Shown here: positions 1 through 7,865 of the stretch, piece after piece | How positions within the stretch are numbered: position 1 is the stretch's first letter | How the letters are laid out: every line of letters starts with the position of its first letter | Origin: Candidatus Desantisbacteria bacterium CG1_02_38_46 | GTDB taxonomy: Bacteria; Desantisbacteria; UBA1551; UBA1559 | Assembly: GCA_001871015.1 (NCBI GenBank) | Contig: MNUO01000001.1 | Span: forward strand, 1-7,865 | Direction: 5' to 3' | Length of the DNA stretch: 7,865 nucleotides | Translations under genes and position numbers: made by a program | The notes under the pieces: model-generated | Told to the model about the DNA's origin: nothing | Databases searched by the model: none | Seen by the model: only the letters and a program-made list of their open reading frames with translations

Positions 1-1
1 T

Positions 2-400
2 CTTACATCAATTTCCAAAGCAGAGGAAATATCAGGTAAAAGTTTTAGTAATTCAGAAAAAGAACTTACTCCTGAAGATCTAAAGTATATAGAAAAATTA
101 CAAAGAGAAATAAAAAAAGCAGAAGAAAATATTCCCAAAGTCATCAATGCCAATAGCCCCAGGGAGACAGAGCAGGGTTTAGCTAAATTAGTTTTAACCC
201 TGGTTGAATTAATAAGAAGACTTATGGAGAAAGAGGCTTTCAGAAGAGTAAAGAGAGGAACACTTTCTCGTGGAGAAATTCAGAAATTGGGATTGAGCCT
301 TAAAGCAGTAAAGAAAAAAATAAAAGAGATTCAGGCAATTTTTGGCATTGAGGATGAAGAATTAAATTTGGACCTGGGTCCTCTGGGGAATTTAATGTGA
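2..400 (+). CDS. gvpK: Gas vesicle protein GvpK, C-terminal part (5' end outside window)
   Basis: The open frame runs in from the window edge, gives 132 residues and stops with TGA at 398-400. The C-terminal ~75 residues match the GvpK family: GLAKLVLTLVELIRRLMEKE, then RRVKRGTLSRGEIQKLG, and the hallmark ending DLNLDLGPLGNLM (family form DLNLDLGPLG.LL). GvpK is an accessory protein needed for gas vesicle assembly in the cytoplasm; its exact biochemical role is not settled. The ~55 residues before the conserved core are lysine/glutamate rich and look helical (TPEDLKYIEKLQREIKKAEE). The frame is still open at the edge, so the N-terminal extension is long for the family, or the gene is fused to an upstream domain. 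Two further gas vesicle genes follow on the same strand. Identity is firm; the start is not visible. Confidence 0.93.
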   Translation, partial: LTSISKAEEISGKSFSNSEKELTPEDLKYIEKLQREIKKAEENIPKVINANSPRETEQGLAKLVLTLVELIRRLMEKEAFRRVKRGTLSRGEIQKLGLSLKAVKKKIKEIQAIFGIEDEELNLDLGPLGNLM

Positions 401-405
401 TGGGA

Positions 406-460
406 GTACCCCCAGTTTCTGGCGCCATAGGGCGACCTATGTCGAAACTAACAGGGGTAC
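406..460 (+). repeat. Long interrupted hairpin with GCGA tetraloop, upstream of gvpJ
   Basis: Three nested stems can be drawn. GTACCCC (406-412) pairs with GGGGTAC (454-460), AGTTTC (414-419) pairs with GAAACT (444-449), and CATAGG (426-431) pairs with CCTATG (436-441) around a GCGA loop, which fits the stable GNRA class. Small internal loops separate the stems. It fills most of the gap between gvpK and gvpJ and ends 15 nt before the gvpJ start. No T-run follows, so it is not an intrinsic terminator. It could be an mRNA processing or stability element that sets expression of gvpJ and gvpO relative to gvpK, or a small palindromic repeat insertion. The structure is seen directly; the function is inferred. 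Confidence 0.6.
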
Positions 461-478
461 AGGGAGGGATAAACAATG
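461..478 (+). promoter_or_regulatory. Shine-Dalgarno site fixing the gvpJ start
   Basis: AGGGAGG at 461-467 sits 8 nt before ATG 476-478, a strong site with standard spacing. It lies immediately 3' of the long hairpin, so folding of the hairpin leaves it exposed. Confidence 0.7.
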
Positions 479-772
479 GCACAACAAAAAATGATGCATG
501 CTACTGAGGCTACCAACCTTGCAGATATTTTAGAGAGGGTTTTAGATAAGGGAATTGTAATTGCCGGAGATATTCAAATCAGGATTGCGGATGTAGAGCT
601 TTTAACTATAAAGATAAGATTAATGGTTGCTTCTGTAGATAAGGCTATGGAGATGGGTATAAATTGGTGGCAAACAGACTCTTTTTTATCTTCAAAAGCA
701 AGAGAGACAGAAACAGAAAAGAAAATTGAGGAACTTGAGGCAGAGGTTAAAAAATTAAAAACCGAGGCATAA
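476..772 (+). CDS. gvpJ: Gas vesicle GvpA/GvpJ-family structural protein
   Basis: This 98-residue protein carries the GvpA-family core from about residue 14 to 65: NLADILERVLDKGIVIAGDI, then IRIADVELLTIKIRLMVASV and DKAMEMGINWW. The family forms the ribbed hydrophobic shell of gas vesicles (GvpA) or minor shell and tip components (GvpJ, GvpM, GvpS). The AGDI segment after KGIVI and the GINWW ending favour the GvpJ-type minor component over the major GvpA shell protein, whose core usually continues IDAWVRVSLVGIELL. Residues ~70-97 are a charged helical tail with coiled-coil character (ETETEKKIEELEAEVKKLK), unlike the short tail of most GvpA proteins. The gene lies 75 nt after gvpK and 2 nt before gvpO. 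The family is certain; the J assignment over A, M or S is moderate. Confidence 0.9.
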   Translation: MAQQKMMHATEATNLADILERVLDKGIVIAGDIQIRIADVELLTIKIRLMVASVDKAMEMGINWWQTDSFLSSKARETETEKKIEELEAEVKKLKTEA

Positions 773-774
773 AA

Positions 775-1044
775 ATGGAAATAAAAGATATTGTAGAAAC
801 AGCAAAAGAAAAATTAATGGAATTTACCGGATTCAGTTCTCCAAATGCCATAGGAATTAACAAAGAAGGAAATGAATGGCACATTACTGTAGAAATAATT
901 GAGAAGCCTTCCGAAGCGGTTAACCTGGAGATTCTGGGAATTTATGACGTCCGCGTCGATGCTTCAGGAAATCTTCTTGGCTATGAGAGAATGGGGATGA
1001 GAAAACGTGGGGATATACAAAAAGGGGATATACGAAGAGAATAA
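775..1044 (+). CDS. gvpO: Gas vesicle accessory protein GvpO
   Basis: The 89-residue product matches GvpO: NEWHITVEIIEKPSEAVNLE, then a YDVRVDASGNLLGYER block (family form YEV.LD..G.L..Y.R) and a basic C-terminus. GvpO is a cytoplasmic protein required for gas vesicle formation in haloarchaea, with a proposed regulatory or assembly role. ATG 775 lies 2 nt after the gvpJ stop (TAA 770-772), so the two are probably translationally coupled; a GAGG lies within the end of gvpJ. The tail contains a small in-frame duplication: GGGGATATAC at 1009-1018 and 1024-1033, 15 nt apart, gives GDIQ then GDIR. The visible gene set is late in a gvp operon; gvpA, gvpN and gvpF/L would be expected upstream of the window. 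Confidence 0.9.
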   Translation: MEIKDIVETAKEKLMEFTGFSSPNAIGINKEGNEWHITVEIIEKPSEAVNLEILGIYDVRVDASGNLLGYERMGMRKRGDIQKGDIRRE

Positions 1045-1067
1045 TCATTCTTTTATAAAGAGATATT

Positions 1068-1766
1068 ATGAAAACACTTATTTATGTTCCTGTTATACAT
1101 ACAAGTGCTGACCTCGGCTCTATTGCGAAAGCAGTGGCTAAAAGAGGTATGGCGGGCCTAGGTGAGGAATTCTGGAAGGAGCACGAAAGGACGGTTGATG
1201 GTTTCTGGGATGCGATTATGAAATATTTTGATTCGATTGAGGTATCCGGCTTTAAGCTCTATCAGGATGGAATGATTGCTGATGGAGAAATCGGCAGGAA
1301 GATAGTGGAGGAAGGAGCTAAAAAGGGAAGCAAGAACCATGAAATTGTGCTCAGGCTATTGGAGAGAGGAGCAAGTCTGGTTAAGACAGAAGATTATTCT
1401 CTTGTCAAGAAAGAATATGACTATATTAAAAGGTTGACTCAGGCAAAGTCAATACCAGGTAAAATAATAGCGTATTTACGCTACAGGTTGATCAGAAATA
1501 AATTATTAAGGCAAAGGGATGAATTTATAGTCAGGCAAATTAATGAATTTCTTGAAAGAGGTGAAACAGGCATTCTCTTCATTGGTGTAGCGCATAGAAT
1601 AATTCCGTTGCTTCCTCAATGGATTCAGTTAAAGCAGGTGAAGGAAGTTGAGAAAACCAGGGAATATCAGGAAATATTTCAACAGATGTTCATTTCCAGG
1701 AAAGAAGCCAGGAAACGATTCGAAGAATTAGCCAGATATCTTGTTTCACCAGTAAATCAGATGTAA
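1068..1766 (+). CDS. Uncharacterised 232-residue protein in the gas vesicle operon, possible TraB/EreA-like fold
   Basis: I do not recognise a named gene. The protein is soluble, with no signal peptide or convincing membrane span. It begins MKTLIYVPVIHTSADLGS with a His at residue 11. The middle has a distinctive stretch at ~65-115: KLYQDGMIADGE, KGSKNHEIVLRLLERGASL, then TEDYSLVKKEY. Near the C-terminus R150-D151 starts RDEFIVRQINEFLERGE, followed by ILFIGVAHRI with His176. An N-terminal beta strand ending in His, a late Arg-Asp helix, and a hydrophobic strand ending G-x-A-H recall the TraB/TIKI and erythromycin-esterase superfamily, which uses such His residues at a metal or catalytic site. 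That link is inference by pattern. It starts 23 nt after gvpO and abuts the next gene, so it is transcribed with the gvp genes. Confidence 0.7.
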   Translation: MKTLIYVPVIHTSADLGSIAKAVAKRGMAGLGEEFWKEHERTVDGFWDAIMKYFDSIEVSGFKLYQDGMIADGEIGRKIVEEGAKKGSKNHEIVLRLLERGASLVKTEDYSLVKKEYDYIKRLTQAKSIPGKIIAYLRYRLIRNKLLRQRDEFIVRQINEFLERGETGILFIGVAHRIIPLLPQWIQLKQVKEVEKTREYQEIFQQMFISRKEARKRFEELARYLVSPVNQM

Positions 1767-1976
1767 TTGTTGAAATTTAAAGAGATAAAATTGAAGAAAG
1801 AAGAATTAGAGAAGATAGTTAAAGAACTTGAAAGTGAAATAAGCAACATAGGAGCAGAGATATTTGCCTTACAGGCAAAGATGAAAAGAACAGATGAAAG
1901 ATTGAAAGAATATAAAGAAATGTTAGAAAAAGAAAGTTTTAAAGAAAAGAAAGATGAAGAAAACCATTTAAAATAG
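1767..1976 (+). CDS. Small coiled-coil protein, last gene of the gas vesicle operon
   Basis: A 69-residue frame opens with TTG codons at 1767 and 1770, directly after the TAA (1764-1766) of the preceding gene, and ends at TAG 1974-1976. The product is one long, highly charged helix rich in Lys and Glu, with heptad-like spacing of Leu and Ile (KKEELEKIVKELESEISNIG, then FALQAKMKRTDERLKEYKEM). It has no membrane span and no recognisable domain. There is no clear ribosome binding site, so translation probably depends on coupling to the upstream stop. Small coiled-coil proteins do occur in gvp clusters, but I cannot match this one. The low-complexity composition leaves some doubt that it is real; the immediate abutment and the terminator just after it support it. 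Confidence 0.55.
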   Translation: MLKFKEIKLKKEELEKIVKELESEISNIGAEIFALQAKMKRTDERLKEYKEMLEKESFKEKKDEENHLK

Positions 1977-1979
1977 ATA

Positions 1980-2051
1980 GGGAGAGGGGAAATCACTGAT
2001 GTTCCACTTTTCGGGTCAATTCTCCCATTTCTCTCCTCTCCCCCTTTTTTT
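1980..2051 (+). terminator. Long-loop inverted repeat with T-run, possible first terminator
   Basis: GGGAGAGG (1980-1987) is complementary to CCTCTCCC (2035-2042). The right arm is followed by CC and seven T (2045-2051). The loop is ~47 nt, so it is a less efficient design than the hairpin that follows. It starts 3 nt after the last gene of the gas vesicle operon. Confidence 0.45.
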
Positions 2052-2061
2052 ACCTATTTTT

Positions 2062-2088
2062 AAGCCGCCTGATTGGCGGTTTTTTTTT
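2062..2088 (+). terminator. Intrinsic terminator closing the gas vesicle operon
   Basis: CCGCC (2065-2069), loop TGATT and GGCGG (2075-2079) form a GC-only 5-bp stem, extended by a G-T wobble and A-T pairs. The right arm runs straight into nine T (2080-2088). This is a textbook rho-independent terminator. It separates the gvp transcript from the DUF835/dGTPase group. Confidence 0.88.
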
Positions 2089-2103
2089 AATAGCTAAGGA
2101 AAT

Positions 2104-2125
2104 TATACCAAAAGTTATCCACAAC
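2104..2125 (+). repeat. Array leader, copy 1, with a perfect DnaA-box sequence
   Basis: These 22 nt are identical to 7661-7682, and each copy is followed 2 nt later by the first hairpin repeat of an array. Over 47 nt (2104-2150 against 7661-7707) I see only one mismatch, C2126 against T7683. The leader contains TTATCCACA (2115-2123), which equals the strong DnaA-box consensus. Because the leader travels with the repeat, it is probably part of the element rather than a chance replication site. Confidence 0.75.
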
Positions 2126-2127
2126 CT

Positions 2128-2199
2128 TCAGGACTAAAGTCCTGAGTTACATATCAGGACTAAAGTCCTGAGTTACGTAACTCAGACCTTCAGGTCTGA
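2128..2199 (+). repeat. REP-like hairpin array 1: two direct copies and one inverted variant
   Basis: TCAGGACTAAAGTCCTGA occurs at 2128-2145 and 2154-2171, each followed by GTTAC; the period is 26 nt. The unit is a 7-bp stem (TCAGGAC/GTCCTGA) with a TAAA loop. A third unit at 2177-2199 lies in the opposite orientation: GTAAC, then stem TCAGACC, loop TTCA, stem GGTCTGA. The junction between the second and third units is the perfect palindrome GAGTTACGTAACTC (2170-2183). A 5' tetranucleotide-like tag (GTAA on the minus strand) before a short hairpin, and head-to-head pairing of two units, are the organisation known for REP/BIME elements of RAYT transposases. No such transposase gene is in the window. 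Confidence 0.85.
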
Positions 2200-2205
2200 T
2201 ATTTC

Positions 2206-2244
2206 TTGTTAAAAACTTGCATTTTTTTATAATTTGAGTATAAT
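2206..2244 (+). promoter_or_regulatory. Sigma70-like promoter(s) for the DUF835 gene
   Basis: Two overlapping solutions are visible. TTGTTA (2206-2211), a 16-nt spacer and TATAAT (2228-2233) form one. TTGCAT (2217-2222), a 16-nt spacer and a second TATAAT (2239-2244) form the other. Both -10 boxes are perfect. The leader to the start codon is short (~25-35 nt). The promoter lies directly downstream of the inverted hairpin unit. Confidence 0.65.
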
Positions 2245-2262
2245 AAAAATATCAAAAGAATA

Positions 2263-2279
2263 AAGGAGGAAAATAAATG
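2263..2279 (+). promoter_or_regulatory. Strong Shine-Dalgarno site fixing the DUF835 gene start
   Basis: AAGGAGG (2263-2269) lies 7 nt before ATG 2277-2279. It is a near-perfect match to the 16S rRNA tail and the strongest site in the window. Confidence 0.8.
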
Positions 2280-3026
2280 ATAAATGTTATAATTTCCTGG
2301 ATTATTTTTGGTTTCAGTGTGTCTACAGGTATTTTTGTATTCTATAAAAATCCTAAGAGTGTAGTACATGGGTTCTTTGCGATAATGGCCATTCTCCTGG
2401 GCATCTGGAGCGTCAGCAGGTTATTTTTAAATGTACTTGCCATTACGCCTTTACAGGTTTTTAATGGAGTTCTGATTGGATTTGTTGCCCGTCTCCTCCT
2501 TAAGTTCAAAGTGAGTTATGTAAAAATAGTTTCTGAAGACAATTTAAAGACCCCTCTTACTTATGACCTAAAAAGAGGGTATTCATATTTATTAATGGGG
2601 AAAGATACTGAGAAAATTTTGCAAATTTTTACTGATCTGGTCACCCATGGAATCCAGGGATTGTATATTTCACGGGAGGAGCCTGAGGAAATTAGAAAAA
2701 AGTATAAATTGGGCAAGATTCGCATCTTCTGGTTAAGCAGAAAAGCCATTTATCCTTACTCCCTTTCTCCAAATGATTTGCGCTCAATAACTTATCTTCT
2801 CAAGGAATTCTTCACTTCTGCAGATGATGGTGTGGTAGGCATCGATGGAATAGAATATCTTATAGTATATAATAGTCTTCCATCAGTTATCAAATGGATT
2901 GACGAGATAAACGAGATAGTTATAGAGAAGAAAGCGAGGTTATTACTTAATATTAACCCCTATCTTATTGAGGAAAGGGACATTTCATTCCTCAAGATTC
3001 ACATAAGAAACCTTCAGGAAATTTAA
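2277..3026 (+). CDS. Membrane-anchored DUF835-domain protein
   Basis: This 249-residue protein has an N-terminal membrane part with spans at about residues 4-22 and 30-52 and probably a third at ~58-74. The short loop FYKNPKSVVHGFF between the first two resembles the start of the multi-span sensor region of some histidine kinases (loop form YKNPKS). Only two or three spans are present, so it looks like a shortened version. From about residue 92 a cytoplasmic DUF835 domain follows: YDLKRGYSYLLMGKD, THGIQGLYISREEPEEIRKK, IRIFWLSR, a VVGIDGIEYLIVYN strand-helix block and INPYLIEERD. DUF835 is of unknown function and is often coupled to signalling proteins in archaea and bacteria; a sensor or signalling role is inference. 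It is the first gene after a terminator and promoter, and is followed after 10 nt by the dGTPase gene. Confidence 0.75.
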   Translation: MINVIISWIIFGFSVSTGIFVFYKNPKSVVHGFFAIMAILLGIWSVSRLFLNVLAITPLQVFNGVLIGFVARLLLKFKVSYVKIVSEDNLKTPLTYDLKRGYSYLLMGKDTEKILQIFTDLVTHGIQGLYISREEPEEIRKKYKLGKIRIFWLSRKAIYPYSLSPNDLRSITYLLKEFFTSADDGVVGIDGIEYLIVYNSLPSVIKWIDEINEIVIEKKARLLLNINPYLIEERDISFLKIHIRNLQEI

Positions 3027-3036
3027 AGCGAAAAAA

Positions 3037-4221
3037 ATGTTTACAAGGAAAGAATTTGAAGAAATTGAACTGGAATATCTTGCTTCCTACGCTATGAAAT
3101 CAAGACAAAGCCGTGGAAGAAAATATCATGAAGAAGAGCATCTGTATCGCACCTGTTTCCAGAGAGATAGAGACAGGGTAATACATTCCAGCGCATTCAG
3201 ACGGCTTGAATATAAGACACAGGTTTTTGTTAATCATGAGGGGGATTATTATCGCACAAGGCTTACACATACATTAGAGGTTGCACAAGTTGCTCGTTCT
3301 ATCGCACGTGCACTGCGTCTCAATGAGGATTTAACCGAAGCAATAGCACTTGCACATGATTTAGGGCATACTCCATTTGGACATTCTGGAGAGGAGGCAC
3401 TGCATAACTTGATGAGGGAGTACGGCGAATCGTTTGAGCATAATCGTCAGGGTTTGAGAGTAGTGGATGAATTAGAGAAAAAATATCCGGGATTTCCCGG
3501 CCTCAACCTATCGTGGGAAGTGAGGGAAGGAATAATTAAACACAAGACCCCCTATGACCAACCTGATGTGAAAGAATTTAATCCTGATGAATCACCAACC
3601 CTTGAATCCCAGGTGGTAAATATTGCTGACGAGATAGCCTATACTAACCACGACCTTGATGATGGATTTACTGCAGGATATATAAATGAGGATGAACTTT
3701 CTGATATTTCACTCTGGAAGGAAATCTATGGAATTGTAAAAAAGGAAAATCCACTATTAAACAGAGAAACCTGGAAATTTCAGGCAGCGAAATTTCTCAT
3801 CAATAAGCAGGTTTCTGATTTAATTACTAATACTGATAAAAACCTTGCACAATTTAAAATAAAGGATATTGAGGATGTGCGTAAGGCACCTATTATTGTT
3901 CAATTTAGTGCACAGATGGAAGAAGAAAATGCCTGTCTTAAAAAATTCCTGTTAGAACATCTTTACCATCATCACAAGGTTCTGCGCATGGTGGATAAAT
4001 CGCGTAGATTCATCAAAGAACTTTTCAGAGTTTATATTAAATTTCCAGAGCAACTTCCGCCAGATGTACAGGAAAGAATAAAAAATGTTAATGTCTCAAA
4101 GGGGTCCCCTGAAGAGAAATCAGAGATTGCTCGCATAATATGTGACTACATTGCTGGCATGACAGACCGCTCAGTGCAGGATGAATATATTAAATTATTT
4201 ATGCCGTATGAGAAGGTGTGA
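3037..4221 (+). CDS. dgt: dGTPase-like HD-domain phosphohydrolase
   Basis: The 394-residue protein is full length for the dGTPase-like family. It would hydrolyse dGTP or other dNTPs to the deoxynucleoside and triphosphate in the cytoplasm and so affect dNTP pool balance. Family hallmarks are present in order: YHEEEHLYRTCFQRDRDRVI, SSAFRRLEYKTQVF, RTRLTHTLEV with His78, ALAHDLGHTPFGHSGE with His107-Asp108 (the HD pair) and further His111 and His116, a Gly-Phe-Pro-Gly-Leu-Asn-Leu-Ser segment, and NIADEIAYTNHDLDDG with Asp198. H78, H107, D108 and D198 form the expected HD metal site, so the enzyme should be active. The C-terminal half matches the helical HD-associated region. ATG 3037 fits the usual N-terminus; its ribosome binding site is weak, so coupling to the gene 10 nt upstream is likely. 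Substrate range cannot be read from sequence. Confidence 0.93.
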   Translation: MFTRKEFEEIELEYLASYAMKSRQSRGRKYHEEEHLYRTCFQRDRDRVIHSSAFRRLEYKTQVFVNHEGDYYRTRLTHTLEVAQVARSIARALRLNEDLTEAIALAHDLGHTPFGHSGEEALHNLMREYGESFEHNRQGLRVVDELEKKYPGFPGLNLSWEVREGIIKHKTPYDQPDVKEFNPDESPTLESQVVNIADEIAYTNHDLDDGFTAGYINEDELSDISLWKEIYGIVKKENPLLNRETWKFQAAKFLINKQVSDLITNTDKNLAQFKIKDIEDVRKAPIIVQFSAQMEEENACLKKFLLEHLYHHHKVLRMVDKSRRFIKELFRVYIKFPEQLPPDVQERIKNVNVSKGSPEEKSEIARIICDYIAGMTDRSVQDEYIKLFMPYEKV

Positions 4222-4222
4222 A

Positions 4223-4324
4223 ATGAAAAAAGAATTGATAATTGAATATCTATTTATAGGAGCGTTAGTTGCTTTTATTATAATTGCAATTATTATGGCC
4301 ATCAAGCCAGATCTTGGCAGGTGA
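4223..4324 (+). CDS. Small single-pass membrane protein, 33 residues
   Basis: The frame starts at ATG 4223, one base after the dGTPase stop (TGA 4219-4221), and ends at TGA 4322-4324. It is preceded by GAGAAGG (4210-4216), a good ribosome binding site 6 nt from the ATG. The product begins MKKELIIEYLFIGALVAF, continues IIIAIIMAIKPDLGR, and is one hydrophobic helix (about residues 9-27) with a charged N-terminus and a KPDLGR tail. It fits a small membrane protein with one span; I do not recognise a family. The region between the dGTPase gene and comF has no other explanation, and the ribosome binding site plus clean hydrophobic design argue that it is real. Topology and function are unknown. 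Confidence 0.6.
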   Translation: MKKELIIEYLFIGALVAFIIIAIIMAIKPDLGR

Positions 4325-4336
4325 TTTAGGTGTCTA

Positions 4337-4413
4337 TCAGGACTAAAGTCCTGAGTTACAATATCAGGACTAAAGTCCTGAGTTACAATATCAGGACTAA
4401 AGTCCTGAGTTAC
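4337..4413 (+). repeat. REP-like hairpin array 2: three copies with 27-nt period
   Basis: TCAGGACTAAAGTCCTGA occurs at 4337-4354, 4364-4381 and 4391-4408, each followed by GTTAC, with linker AATA between units. The 27-nt period keeps one reading frame open through the whole array (repeating peptide IRTKVLSYN), and that frame runs into comF. This array lacks the 22-nt leader found at the other two. The 3' flank (4416-4433, TGTCAAGACCTGACCCCA) may be the edge of another repeat rather than native comF upstream sequence. Confidence 0.85.
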
Positions 4414-4440
4414 ATGTCAAGACCTGACCCCATTACAACT

Positions 4441-5166
4441 ATGGAATTGTTGAAGGGTTTACTAAATCTGATATATCCACCACGATGTCTTATTTGTGGC
4501 AAACTTCTTGAGGATAATGACGGACTTTGCCCCAAGTGTTTCCAGGGAATAGAAATAATTAAGCATCCCTGTTGCAATATATGCGGTAAACCTCTCCAGC
4601 CGGAGTCATTTATTGGTATTGACGACCCAGTCTGTTTTGACTGTCGGAAAAGAAAGTTCTTTTTTAATTATGCTCGGTCAATCGGAAAATATAAAGGGAT
4701 TTTAAAAGAATGTATTCACCTTTTGAAATACAAGGGCAAAAAGGTTCTTTTGAAACCATTGGATAAACTCATCAAAACTTGCCTTGATGAACTTATCCCA
4801 TTTGAAAAAATTTCGTTTATTACACAGGTGCCATTGCACAAAAAACGTCTGCGCGAAAGGGGATTCAATCAATCTGGACTTATTGCAGGGTTGATAGGGA
4901 ATCGTTATCAAATTCCCGTTCTTTCGAATTTGCTCAATAGAATTGTGTACACTCCACCGCAAGCAACTTTAACGAAAGTTGAAAGATTGAGAAACATAAA
5001 AGGTGTGTTTGCAGTGGTGGGTACCCCCAGCTGGGTGGAGTGCGGTACAATTTTACTCATAGATGATGTATATACTACAGGTGCCACGGTCAATGAATGT
5101 GCCAAAGTTTTAAAAAAGGCAGGAGCGCAGGAAGTATATGTGCTGACACTCGCACATGGAATTTGA
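4441..5166 (+). CDS. comF: ComF-family phosphoribosyltransferase-like protein
   Basis: Starting at ATG 4441 the product is 241 residues and begins MELLKGLLNLIYPPRCLICG, the usual ComF start. Four Cys pairs give a double zinc-ribbon region: C16-C19, C30-C33, C45-C48 and C65-C68. The type I phosphoribosyltransferase part follows, with VPLHKKRLRERGFNQS and the PRPP loop ILLIDDVYTTGATVNEC (D208, D209, then TTGAT). ComF proteins act in natural transformation, where they appear to help process imported single-stranded DNA; many ComF-bearing bacteria are not known to be competent. The frame is open back to GTG 4330 and could add 37 residues encoded by the hairpin array. I prefer 4441 because those residues are repeat-derived and family members begin at the LLKGLL segment, but no ribosome binding site is visible before 4441. 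ATG 4414 is the other alternative. Confidence 0.88.
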   Translation: MELLKGLLNLIYPPRCLICGKLLEDNDGLCPKCFQGIEIIKHPCCNICGKPLQPESFIGIDDPVCFDCRKRKFFFNYARSIGKYKGILKECIHLLKYKGKKVLLKPLDKLIKTCLDELIPFEKISFITQVPLHKKRLRERGFNQSGLIAGLIGNRYQIPVLSNLLNRIVYTPPQATLTKVERLRNIKGVFAVVGTPSWVECGTILLIDDVYTTGATVNECAKVLKKAGAQEVYVLTLAHGI

Positions 5167-5190
5167 CATTTTTTGAAAATCTGATAGAAT
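5163..5190 (+). promoter_or_regulatory. Sigma70-like promoter for lysC
   Basis: TTGACA (5163-5168, a perfect -35) overlaps the comF stop codon. After 16 nt comes TAGAAT (5185-5190), one mismatch from the -10 consensus. The leader to ATG 5215 is only ~20 nt, so there is no room for a lysine riboswitch or attenuator; control is more likely by feedback through the ACT domains. Confidence 0.65.
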
Positions 5191-5202
5191 TAGGAAGAAA
5201 AC

Positions 5203-5217
5203 GAGGGATTGACTATG
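5203..5217 (+). promoter_or_regulatory. Shine-Dalgarno site choosing ATG 5215 for lysC
   Basis: GAGGG follows AC at 5203-5207, 7 nt before ATG 5215. A TTG two codons upstream (5209) would overlap this site, so ATG 5215 is the better start and gives the canonical N-terminus MALIVQKFGG. Confidence 0.7.
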
Positions 5218-6459
5218 GCGTTGATTGTGCAAAAATTTGGTGGCGCTTCAGTTGCTAACCCACAACGGATTAAAAATGTCGCCTGTATAGTACAGAAAAC
5301 GAAGCAAAACGGAAATGATGTAGTGGTAGTTGTCTCTGCTCCAGGAGATACTACAGATGACCTGATAAAACTGAGTTCAGGTATTTCCAGTTCTGTTTCA
5401 GACAGAGAAATGGATATGCTCTTGAGCACAGGAGAGCAGGTTTCCATTGCACTCCTTGCAATGGCTTTACAGGAAAAAGGAGAAAAAACAATTTCCCTGA
5501 GCGGTGGGCAAGCAGGAATAATAACTGATGGAATTTATGGAAAGGCGAAGATTATAAAGATTGAACCGCGGCACATTTTAAGCAACTTGAGAAAAGGCAA
5601 AATTGTAATTATTGCAGGATTTCAGGGGATAACCATGGATGGCGAGATTACTACTTTAGGAAGGGGAGGTTCAGATACGACTGCCGTTGCACTTGCAGCG
5701 GCGCTTAACGCAGATCTGTGTGAAATTTATACTGACGTGAAAGGAATTTACACCACTGACCCCAGAGTTGTATCAAAAGCAAGGTGTTTACCTTGCATCT
5801 CTTATGGAGAAGTTCTTGAGATGGCAAGTCTTGGCGCAAAGGTACTCCATCCACGCGCAGCTGAAATTGCAAAAAATTTTAATATTCAATTAAGAGTCAG
5901 GTCCAGCTTTGATGTGCATAATGAAGGAACTCTGGTACAGGGAAGGGGAACTAAAATGGTTAGACGGAAATCTCAACAGATAGAAAAGATGGCTGTTGCA
6001 GGTGTAGCAGCAGACAAAAACCAGGCCAAGGTTACAATAGTGAATGTTCCGGACAGACCTGGTATTGTCTCTAAAATTTTCGAACCAATAGCCAGTGAAA
6101 ATATAAGTGTAGATATGATTATCCAGAATGTTAGCCACCGCGGATTTGCTGATGTTTCGTTTACGATTAACAGGTCTGAGTTGCAAAAAGTTTTGAGAAT
6201 TGTTAAAAAAGTGGCAAAGGAGATTAAATCTAAAGGAGTAACTTCTGCAGCCGATATTGCAAAAGTTTCAATTGTAGGTGCTGGTATGTATAGTTATCCC
6301 GGCGTAGCAGCCAGAATGTTCACAGCACTTGCCAGGCAGCGTATAAATATTGAAATGATCAGTACATCTGAAATTAAAATTTCCTGTGTGGTAAAGGAGA
6401 AACAGGCAGATCTTGCAGTGAAAGCTTTGCATCGGGAATTTCGTCTGGATAAAAAATGA
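5215..6459 (+). CDS. lysC: Aspartate kinase with two ACT domains
   Basis: The 414-residue protein phosphorylates L-aspartate with ATP, the first step toward lysine, threonine, methionine and diaminopimelate, in the cytoplasm. The amino-acid kinase domain spans ~1-245, with MALIVQKFGG at the start, STGEQVSIALLAMAL, the glycine-rich TTLGRGGSDTTA (146-157), YTDVKGIYTTDPR, and the EVLEMASLGAKVLHPRAAE helix. Two C-terminal ACT domains follow: VPDRPGIVSKIF with NISVDMIIQN, and GAGMYSYPGVAARMF with INIEMISTSEIKISCVV. This is the length and layout of feedback-regulated Bacillus or Corynebacterium type aspartokinases. The N-terminal motif reads KFGGASV instead of the usual KFGGTSV (Ala11), possibly tolerated. 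The stop overlaps the ATG of the next gene by 4 nt (ATGA at 6456-6459). It has its own promoter, and an internal start may yield a separate regulatory subunit. Confidence 0.95.
   Translation: MALIVQKFGGASVANPQRIKNVACIVQKTKQNGNDVVVVVSAPGDTTDDLIKLSSGISSSVSDREMDMLLSTGEQVSIALLAMALQEKGEKTISLSGGQAGIITDGIYGKAKIIKIEPRHILSNLRKGKIVIIAGFQGITMDGEITTLGRGGSDTTAVALAAALNADLCEIYTDVKGIYTTDPRVVSKARCLPCISYGEVLEMASLGAKVLHPRAAEIAKNFNIQLRVRSSFDVHNEGTLVQGRGTKMVRRKSQQIEKMAVAGVAADKNQAKVTIVNVPDRPGIVSKIFEPIASENISVDMIIQNVSHRGFADVSFTINRSELQKVLRIVKKVAKEIKSKGVTSAADIAKVSIVGAGMYSYPGVAARMFTALARQRINIEMISTSEIKISCVVKEKQADLAVKALHREFRLDKK
5943..5958 (+). promoter_or_regulatory. Putative internal translation start for a LysC beta subunit
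   Basis: AAGGGG (5943-5948) lies 7 nt before ATG 5956-5958, which is codon 248 of lysC, in frame, at the junction of the kinase and ACT regions. A product from here would be 167 residues. In Bacillus subtilis LysC and in Corynebacterium aspartokinase an in-frame internal start at nearly the same place produces the regulatory beta subunit. The site is seen in the sequence; its use here is inference. Confidence 0.5.
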
Positions 6460-7655
6460 AATACATGGTGATTGTAGGCGATGGGATGGCTGATTATCCC
6501 ATCACGGAATTAAATGGTTTGACGCCTTTAGAGGTGGCAAGGAAACCCAACTTTGATTTTTTAGTAAGAAATGGAATTTTAGGTCTGGTTAAGACTACAC
6601 CTGAGAGGATGACTCCTGGTACAGATGTTGCTAACCTTTCAATTCTTGGTTATAACCCCAGCAAGTTTTATAGTGGCAGGGGTCCTTTAGAGGCAATAAA
6701 CTTTGGTATAAATATCAGTAAAGAAGATATAGTTTTTCGTTGTAATCTGGTTACAGTTCAGGATGAAAGACTTATTGACTACAGTGCAGGTCATATAGAT
6801 ACCGAAATAGCAAGTCTTTTAATTAAAGAATTGAACCAGAAGTTAGGTAATCGGTTTGTCAAATTCTATCCCGGCGTTAGTTACAGACATCTGATGGTTA
6901 TTAGACACCAATCACCGGTTTCAAGGCGTCGACTGTTAAATGTAAAATGTTTGCCGCCTCACGATGTTATGAATCGTCCATTAAAAGAAATTCTACCCAT
7001 GGGTAGAGGTACAGAAGTTCTGCATCAGTTGATGGCTGATTCGCAAAAATTTCTGGAAAACTACCCTGGATGGAAAATTGGAAAACACAAAGCAAATATG
7101 ATTTGGCTATGGGGACAGGGCAAGAAACCAGGGATGCCATCTTTTTTAAAGAGATATGGTTTGAAAGGCGCTGTTATTTCTGCTGTGGATATTATAAAAG
7201 GAATAGGGCGAGCAATTGGTCTGGATGTAATTGATGTTCCTGGTGCTACAGGGTATTACGACACAAATTATGAAGGAAAGGCAAGATATGCATTAAATGC
7301 ACTTAAAAAAAATGATTTTGTCTTTATTCATATAGAAGCACCTGATGAAGCCGGGCATAACGCAGATATTAAAGAAAAAATAAGAGCTATTGAAAATATT
7401 GACAAAAAGGTACTGGGTAAAGTAATTACAGGTATGAAAAAATACGGTGATTACAAAATTCTTGCGTTGACTGACCACCCGACGCCGATTTCTTTGAGGA
7501 CGCACACTGCAGACCCTGTTCCTTTTGTGATTTATAAAAATAAAATAGGGACAGCGACCATTTTCCAGTTTCATTTTGATGAACGAAGTGCAAAAAAGAG
7601 CAAGTTATTTTTTAAGCAGGGGCATGAGCTAATAAAATTTTTCTTGAGTACATAG
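6456..7655 (+). CDS. ApgM-family (alkaline phosphatase superfamily) protein, probable homoserine kinase
   Basis: The 399-residue protein has the layout of archaeal-type cofactor-independent phosphoglycerate mutase (ApgM). It shows MVIVGDGMAD at the start (D9, D13), TPGTDVANLSILGYNP (52-68), YSGRGPLEA, then EAPDEAGHNAD (D297, H301), TDHPTP (D340, H341) and RTHTADPVPF (H350); the Asp and His residues are the expected two-metal site. A branch of this family is annotated as proposed homoserine kinase (TIGR02535), and members are thought to supply that step where ThrB is missing. The 4-nt overlap with lysC puts it in an aspartate-family operon, so I favour homoserine kinase, ATP-dependent and leading to threonine, over 3-/2-phosphoglycerate interconversion. 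Residue 56, where ApgM enzymes usually have the nucleophile Ser (GSD), is Thr. There is no separate ribosome binding site; translation is coupled to lysC. Confidence 0.85.
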   Translation: MKYMVIVGDGMADYPITELNGLTPLEVARKPNFDFLVRNGILGLVKTTPERMTPGTDVANLSILGYNPSKFYSGRGPLEAINFGINISKEDIVFRCNLVTVQDERLIDYSAGHIDTEIASLLIKELNQKLGNRFVKFYPGVSYRHLMVIRHQSPVSRRRLLNVKCLPPHDVMNRPLKEILPMGRGTEVLHQLMADSQKFLENYPGWKIGKHKANMIWLWGQGKKPGMPSFLKRYGLKGAVISAVDIIKGIGRAIGLDVIDVPGATGYYDTNYEGKARYALNALKKNDFVFIHIEAPDEAGHNADIKEKIRAIENIDKKVLGKVITGMKKYGDYKILALTDHPTPISLRTHTADPVPFVIYKNKIGTATIFQFHFDERSAKKSKLFFKQGHELIKFFLST

Positions 7656-7660
7656 GAGAG

Positions 7661-7682
7661 TATACCAAAAGTTATCCACAAC
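7661..7682 (+). repeat. Array leader, copy 2, with a perfect DnaA-box sequence
   Basis: Identical over 22 nt to 2104-2125 and again placed 2 nt before the first hairpin repeat. The DnaA-box sequence TTATCCACA is at 7672-7680. It begins 5 nt after the stop codon of the ApgM-family gene. Confidence 0.75.
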
Positions 7683-7684
7683 TT

Positions 7685-7865
7685 TCAGGACTAAAGTCCT
7701 GAGTTACAGCAGGTCAGGACTAAAGTCCTGAGTTACAGCAGGTCAGGACTAAAGTCCTGAGTTACGGCAGGTCAGGACTAAAGTCCTGAGTTACGGCAGG
7801 TCAGGACTAAAGTCCTGAGTTACGTAAGGTCAGGACTAAAGTCCTGAGTTACGGCAGGTCAGGAC
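7685..7865 (+). repeat. REP-like hairpin array 3: seven copies with 29-nt period, cut by the window end
   Basis: TCAGGACTAAAGTCCTGA begins at 7685, 7714, 7743, 7772, 7801, 7830 and 7859 (the last truncated), an exact 29-nt period. Each complete unit is followed by GTTAC. The six linkers after GTTAC are AGCAGG, AGCAGG, GGCAGG, GGCAGG, GTAAGG and GGCAGG. The hairpin and GTTAC are invariant in all complete copies while the linkers vary slightly. No T-runs follow, so these are not intrinsic terminators. The spacers are too short (about 6 nt) and too alike for a CRISPR array. Confidence 0.92.

Follow-up and report, generated by a model that had tools for sequence, protein, structure and literature searches.

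The DNA examined here (the window; 7,865 nucleotides, comprising the entire contig C132, positions 1-7865) carries one short hairpin sequence, TCAGGACTAAAGTCCTGAGTTAC, again and again at three intergenic sites, which raises the question of what this repeat is and how it came to be dispersed. The original prediction described 12 direct copies, the last one truncated, with identical cores and with periods of 26, 27, and 29 nucleotides at the three sites. The coordinates confirm this description, and all 11 complete cores are identical. The chance expectation for this 23-mer, given the base composition, is 1e-10 per strand. When read on the minus strand, each copy is GTAAC followed by TCAGGAC-TTTA-GTCCTGA. 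The features of the three sites are as follows.

2094..2127, plus strand: conserved left arm of a class A composite, CTAAGGAAATTATACCAAAAGTTATCCACAACCT (includes TTATCCACA)
2128..2150, minus strand: REP unit, copy 1 of site 1, with a GTAA tag, C spacer, 7-bp stem, and loop TTTA
2154..2176, minus strand: REP unit, copy 2 of site 1
2177..2199, plus strand: inverted REP unit TCAGACCTGAAGGTCTGAGTTAC, its stem compensated (GTAACTCAGACCTTCAGGTCTGA), meeting the 2154 copy tag to tag
2200..2209, plus strand: class A composite, right end (TATTTCTTGT), which continues into a promoter-like TATAAT ahead of the DUF835 gene
4337..4413, minus strand: site 2, three REP units with period 27 and linker AATA
4414..4431, plus strand: right terminal inverted repeat (TIR) ATGTCAAGACCTGACCCC of a degenerate TIR-type MITE that contains site 2
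7661..7684, plus strand: class A left arm at site 3, TATACCAAAAGTTATCCACAACTT
7685..7865, minus strand: site 3, six complete REP units and one truncated unit, period 29

Copies start at 2128 and 2154 at site 1 (period 26, linker ATA), at 4337, 4364, and 4391 at site 2, and at 7685, 7714, 7743, 7772, 7801, and 7830 at site 3, where the linkers are, in order, AGCAGG, AGCAGG, GGCAGG, GGCAGG, GTAAGG, and GGCAGG. The truncated copy occupies 7859-7865 and the site 3 array ends with the contig, whose limits are those of the window; the copy number at site 3 is therefore a minimum. The inverted stem variant at 2177-2199 was absent from the original prediction. Genes near the arrays encode gas-vesicle proteins, a DUF835 protein, an HD-domain (dGTPase-like) protein, a ComF-like protein, aspartate kinase, and phosphoglycerate mutase. 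The open reading frame called from the GTG at 4330 crosses site 2 by chance, and its ComF-like domain begins after 4438. As a separate observation, the gas vesicle proteins (Gas_vesicle, GvpO) encoded at 476-1044 occur here in a genome of a Desantisbacteria order.

Copy number, structure, and placement of the hairpin

The window derives from a metagenome-assembled genome (MAG; G000) of 1.73 Mb in 133 contigs, 88% complete, that belongs to the order of Ca. Desantisbacteria bacterium CG1_02_49_89. A search of this genome for the 23-mer with at most three mismatches returned 110 copies in one orientation and 90 in the other, compared with none for a reversed control, and the repeat is thus not confined to its contig. 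When the stem sequence is left free, the whole family comprises 250 copies (115 + 135; control 0). The genome of CG1_02_49_89 itself, hereafter the sister genome (G001), holds 118 family copies (control 0), mostly with the stem TCAGGGC/GCCCTGA. The remaining sampled genomes, which share only the domain with the window genome, have no copies within three mismatches. Among the matches listed, the hairpin is also found in MAGs named Deltaproteobacteria, Syntrophaceae, Nitrospinae, Methylomirabilota, Brocadiaceae, Zixibacteriota, and Magasanikbacteria. The pattern occurs in nine stretches of viral contigs as well, some with imperfect stems and none of the nine with a RAYT gene, and a search of plasmids for RAYTs gave nothing beyond weak partial matches.

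The hairpin is conserved as a structure through compensatory stem changes. Among 318 units from six genomes, collected with a pattern that allows any base at three inner stem positions of either arm, all three variable pairs are Watson–Crick in 310, where approximately five would be expected by chance; the positions that are either invariant or set by the search pattern are the tag bases G-T-A, the C spacer, stem pairs 1 to 3, and the C-G pair that closes the loop. For the 21 distinct units, 97% of cells pair and double changes occur at three stem positions, giving a covariation score of 0.457 compared to 0.120 in shuffles, with none of 500 shuffles equally high. The loop consensus of the family is TTYA.

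Placement was assessed in 143 kb of the window genome picked around repeats, wherein 90% of the bases are coding. Of 58 clusters, 56 lie outside open reading frames of at least 80 amino acids (six of them at stretch edges), and the other two fall in the spurious GTG extension noted above and in a gene end. Of the 50 clusters located between two genes, 47 are between co-directional genes. The family therefore has the features by which REP sequences are recognized, being a palindrome of 20-40 nucleotides, present in high copy number (~250), and mainly extragenic.

RAYT genes in relatives and transposase genes in the window genome

The original prediction tied the tag-plus-hairpin layout of the repeat to REP elements and their RAYT transposases. 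The association with RAYTs holds in related genomes, although the tag, GTAA, departs from the GT[AG]G described before. Two RAYTs of 160 amino acids are encoded directly between family GTAAC hairpins in the sister genome. The same arrangement is seen for RAYTs of Deltaproteobacteria RBG_16_49_23 (57% identity) and Deltaproteobacteria CG03 (52% identity), while a RAYT in genome G486 is flanked by family GTAAC hairpins and a Nitrospinae RAYT pseudogene, in which the motif Trp codon is TAG, is likewise flanked by family hairpins. The genes of these relatives carry the Y1_Tnp domain, the HUH motif, and the Y..NP motif of RAYTs. Three that were tested score 98-105 bits with the NCBIfam model REP_Tyr_transpos (cut-off 80) but only 28-31 with the IS200 model (cut-off 55), and thus they are not IS200 transposases. 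The best PDB match of the sister RAYT is 4er8, the E. coli TnpA_REP, with W109-H110 aligned to W94-Q95. Beside the sister RAYTs, at L043 3625-3770 and 4460-4515, we also observed hairpins whose stem arms are separated by a long insert (CTCCCTCCATAATGACTGGCGGGTCTTCGAAAAG-like).

A RAYT flanked by the hairpin was also expected elsewhere in the window genome, and this expectation was not borne out in the 88%-complete assembly. The absence of any HUH nuclease gene would have spoken against the original prediction, but such genes do exist in this genome, where three Y1_Tnp matches were found on contigs C53, C60, and C109. The first is an IS200 piece at a contig end. The C60 gene is broken by a TAA codon and is surrounded by inverted repeats with GGGGACG. 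The C109 gene (L002 1462-2445) combines Y1_Tnp with Bac_DnaA_C, adjoins a gatB-like gene, and is flanked by the 12-bp inverted repeats GGGTCAGACCTC/GAGGTCTGACCC. The C60 and C109 genes are consistent with TIRYTs (PMC3733652; termed subclass 2.1 in PMC6006769). None of the three genes has the hairpin beside it. When the sister RAYT was used as a query against the assembly, it matched only the C60 and C109 genes, at 26-28% identity, and no cognate RAYT was recovered. REPtrons are known to be lost, and a RAYT in the same genome is not required of a REP family.

We consider it very likely that the hairpins constitute a non-autonomous REP family that was mobilized by a RAYT. On the minus strand of the window, the mobile unit would comprise the tag GTAA, a C spacer, and a perfect 7-bp hairpin with a TTYA loop. 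Based on the biochemistry of TnpA_REP, the RAYT, an HUH/Y1 single-strand nuclease, would bind the folded hairpin, read the tag as a guide, and cut and join single-stranded DNA, thereby copying the unit. The cognate enzyme would have been lost from the host or would reside in the missing 12% of the assembly. Some copies would later have been amplified locally in tandem, and others would be carried inside larger units, either as a tag-to-tag dimer with a fixed left arm or within a TIR-type MITE. Because the argument for mobility rests on the dispersal of copies, movement is something we infer.

Larger units and other explanations for the repeats

Two kinds of larger unit were recognized. Class A composites consist, in order, of CTTGATAGCTAAGGAAATTATACCAAAAGTTATCCACAACCT, at least one hairpin unit, an abutting inverted unit, and TTTTTCTTGA. 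Window sites 1 and 3 are of this class, and at site 3 the contig ends before any inverted unit. The abutting tag-to-tag dimer seen at 2154/2177 recurs at well over ten loci of the window genome. Arrays of 29 nucleotides with the linker [AG]GCAGG are also present at L139, L140, L149, L152, L157, and L169. Because this linker recurs at several loci, it is inherited rather than locus-specific. The earlier proposals that linkers differ by locus and that each locus expands its own unit are thus correct within the window and in part, respectively, since the 29-nucleotide unit with its linker is a dispersed subfamily.

The class A left arm that includes TTATCCACA, a perfect match to a DnaA box at window positions 2115-2123 and 7672-7680, is itself dispersed in ~20 copies, some diverged (the window and L135-L169). 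At the other end of the composite, TTTTTCTTGA provides the TTGA of apparent -35 boxes at L148, L155, L157, L162, and L164, with spacings such as TTGACA-17-TATAAT, and the element therefore seems to lie precisely at promoters. Pairing the C109 TIRYT with the DnaA-box-like arm as enzyme and substrate was considered and rejected, given that this enzyme class is TIR-associated and that its repeats differ.

In class B, a hairpin unit lies between the TIRs AGGTGTCAGGTCTTGACA...TGTCAAGACCTGACACCT. Approximately 20 copies in the window genome are flanked by TIRs GGTGTCAGGTCTTGACA. At L158 2423-2465, a class B TIR element lacks the unit and is likely a paralogous empty site. Because of this unit-free element, the hairpin looks inserted into class B. 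Window site 2 has a clear right TIR only, and here the hairpin appears to have been inserted into a degenerate TIR-type MITE.

These composites suggest that the hairpins could be passengers spread by larger units, namely the class A composite and a TIR-type MITE that a TIRYT would mobilize, rather than by a RAYT acting on the hairpin. The hairpin and the TIR unit are indeed separable, as judged from the ~20 copies within TIRs and the hairpin-free element at L158, and the window genome has TIRYT-like genes while a cognate RAYT is absent. We nevertheless regard this explanation as unlikely. Many copies have neither arm, and what other genomes share is limited to the hairpin and tag, which there flank RAYTs. 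Moreover, the inverted repeats at the two TIRYT genes differ from the TIR of the MITE.

Host function is somewhat less probable still. If the repeats were regulatory elements under selection, such as RNA hairpins, terminators or mRNA 3′ ends, or DnaA-binding sites, rather than mobile DNA, then their maintenance as a structure and their intergenic location between co-directional genes would be expected, and the DnaA-box match of class A would have a ready meaning. A TATAAT-like hexamer (at least 5/6) also lies 15-19 nucleotides past the TTG box at 8 of 15 class A right ends, compared to 5% of CTTG controls, which were drawn from all sequence, coding included. However, the two orientations are nearly equal in number (110/90), copy number varies among tandem arrays, there is neither a T-run nor an Rfam match for the hairpin, and the hairpins surround RAYT genes in several phyla. 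Later use of some repeats by the host is possible. Finally, the regular short periods, the array at a contig end, and the assembly gaps in some arrays might bring to mind CRISPR-like arrays or assembly error or slippage of one ancestral locus, but this is highly improbable, as the linkers are repeated and only 3-6 nucleotides long, unlike CRISPR spacers, and a single-locus artefact is excluded, and refuted as an account of the family, by the 58 clusters in differing gene contexts and by the occurrence of these hairpins in other phyla, even if exact array lengths could be wrong.

The tag, residue 95, and relationship to known systems

A RAYT-mobilized REP family, the reading we favor, brings the tag to the fore. 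Of 262 copies in the window genome, 250 have GTAA and 12 have GTAG(C), which places the family outside the GT[AG]G tag of the GTAG REP super-family at the fourth base. Published tag degeneracies are GT[AG]G (PMC6006769) and GYAG/GYRG/GTRG/GTMG/GTGG (PMC3733652), and GTAA as a tag is absent from the text of PMC3733652. The GTAA tag therefore appears to be undescribed relative to these two tag sets.

Gln95 of E. coli TnpA_REP is one of the tag-contacting residues (PMC8266576, PMC6006769). At the position of this canonical Gln (LWQ), the family RAYTs carry His (LWH). Five intact LWH RAYTs of the clade have clear flanking hairpins, and GTAA is the majority tag for all five, whereas no LWQ RAYT with at least two like-tagged hairpins has a GTAA majority. 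The RAYT at L177, from Ca. Brocadiaceae genome G068, is LWQ yet falls within the LWH clade on the tree (support 91/86), and the same hairpin bodies, TCAGGGCTTCAGCCCTGA and TCAAACCTTCAGGTTTGA, lie beside it with GTAGC. Genome-wide ratios of GTAAC to GTAGC are 118:4, 94:5, 18:1, and 45:22 in four genomes with an LWH gene, 250:12 in the window genome, where no cognate RAYT was found, and 3:46 in G068 (LWQ). There are exceptions: L241 is a degenerate LWH gene with a GTAG tag, L240 is LWQ with mixed GTAA and GTAG tags, and in G486, which is LWH, one third are GTAGC. Because the LWH genes form essentially one clade (91/86), the match between tag and residue rests on perhaps two changes.

Plausibly, the GTAA tag and the Gln-to-His RAYT form a variant of the canonical GTAG/Gln system in which both partners have changed to match. 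A more specific but tentative idea is that of a natural switch, wherein residue 95 (Gln or His) would read the fourth tag base (G or A) and L177 would have switched back while keeping the same hairpin bodies. Since the tag doubles as cleavage guide, such a switch would shift cutting and insertion from CT to TT. According to the guide model, tag bases 3 and 4 pair with the cleavage dinucleotide, giving CT for GTAG (PMC8266576), and its extension predicts TT for GTAA. Raw counts before the tag were 16 for CT in G068 and 23 for TT in the sister genome, and these fell once related copies were collapsed. At non-redundant sites, CT lies directly 5′ of the tag in 14 of 37 cases in G068 (background 5%), and TT does so in 8 of 36 in the sister genome (background 9%) and 11 of 28 in the window genome. 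The contrast between the sister genome and G068 gives p = 0.07, or p = 0.25 when pooled without the window genome, and other GTAG REPtrons in a wider RAYT set have no CT excess. These counts bear out the prediction only weakly and are no more than suggestive.

Much of the family recalls known GTAG REP/RAYT REPtrons (PMC3733652, PMC6006769, PMC8266576), including a tag 5′ of a short perfect hairpin, high-copy intergenic units that are paired or clustered, and, in relatives, RAYTs of 150-170 amino acids that carry DHLH and YI..NP motifs and have these hairpins on their flanks. Unlike those systems, its RAYTs have LWH in place of LWQ or LWE, and head-to-tail arrays and abutting tag-to-tag dimers are common, where HT dimers have been reported as absent or rare. 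The family also resembles group 3 or subclass 2.4-2.5 TnpA_REP systems (PMC6006769, PMC8266576), with short perfect hairpins, a tag one base off the stem, DHLH, and a YI.NNP-like tyrosine motif, although it occurs in MAGs of Desantisbacteria, Deltaproteobacteria, Nitrospinae, and Brocadiaceae and the likeness is drawn from features rather than from the profiles of those groups. The two TIRYT-like genes of the window genome resemble subclass 2.1 in their surrounding inverted repeats and, in one, Bac_DnaA_C (PMC3733652, PMC6006769), and class B MITEs have similar TIRs; these genes do not have the hairpin described here on their flanks and are not its cognate enzyme. The recurrent inverted dimer of two stem variants is reminiscent of a REPIN. 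In REPINs, the tags are on the outside of the inverted dimer, whereas here they abut inside it.

The novel feature is the GTAA(C) tag, seen with His RAYTs, while a Gln relative in Brocadiaceae uses GTAG(C) on the same bodies, a covariation built on few evolutionary events and with exceptions. RAYT recognition and the choice of cut site are known from few GTAG systems, and in some of these the tag can be altered only slightly or not at all. With both tags on the same hairpin bodies and a matching change in a tag-contacting residue, the family would supply a natural pair on which the guide and recognition model could be tested. The range of REP/RAYT systems is also extended to uncultured phyla, and the composites of the family illustrate that such hairpins may be carried within larger mobile units.
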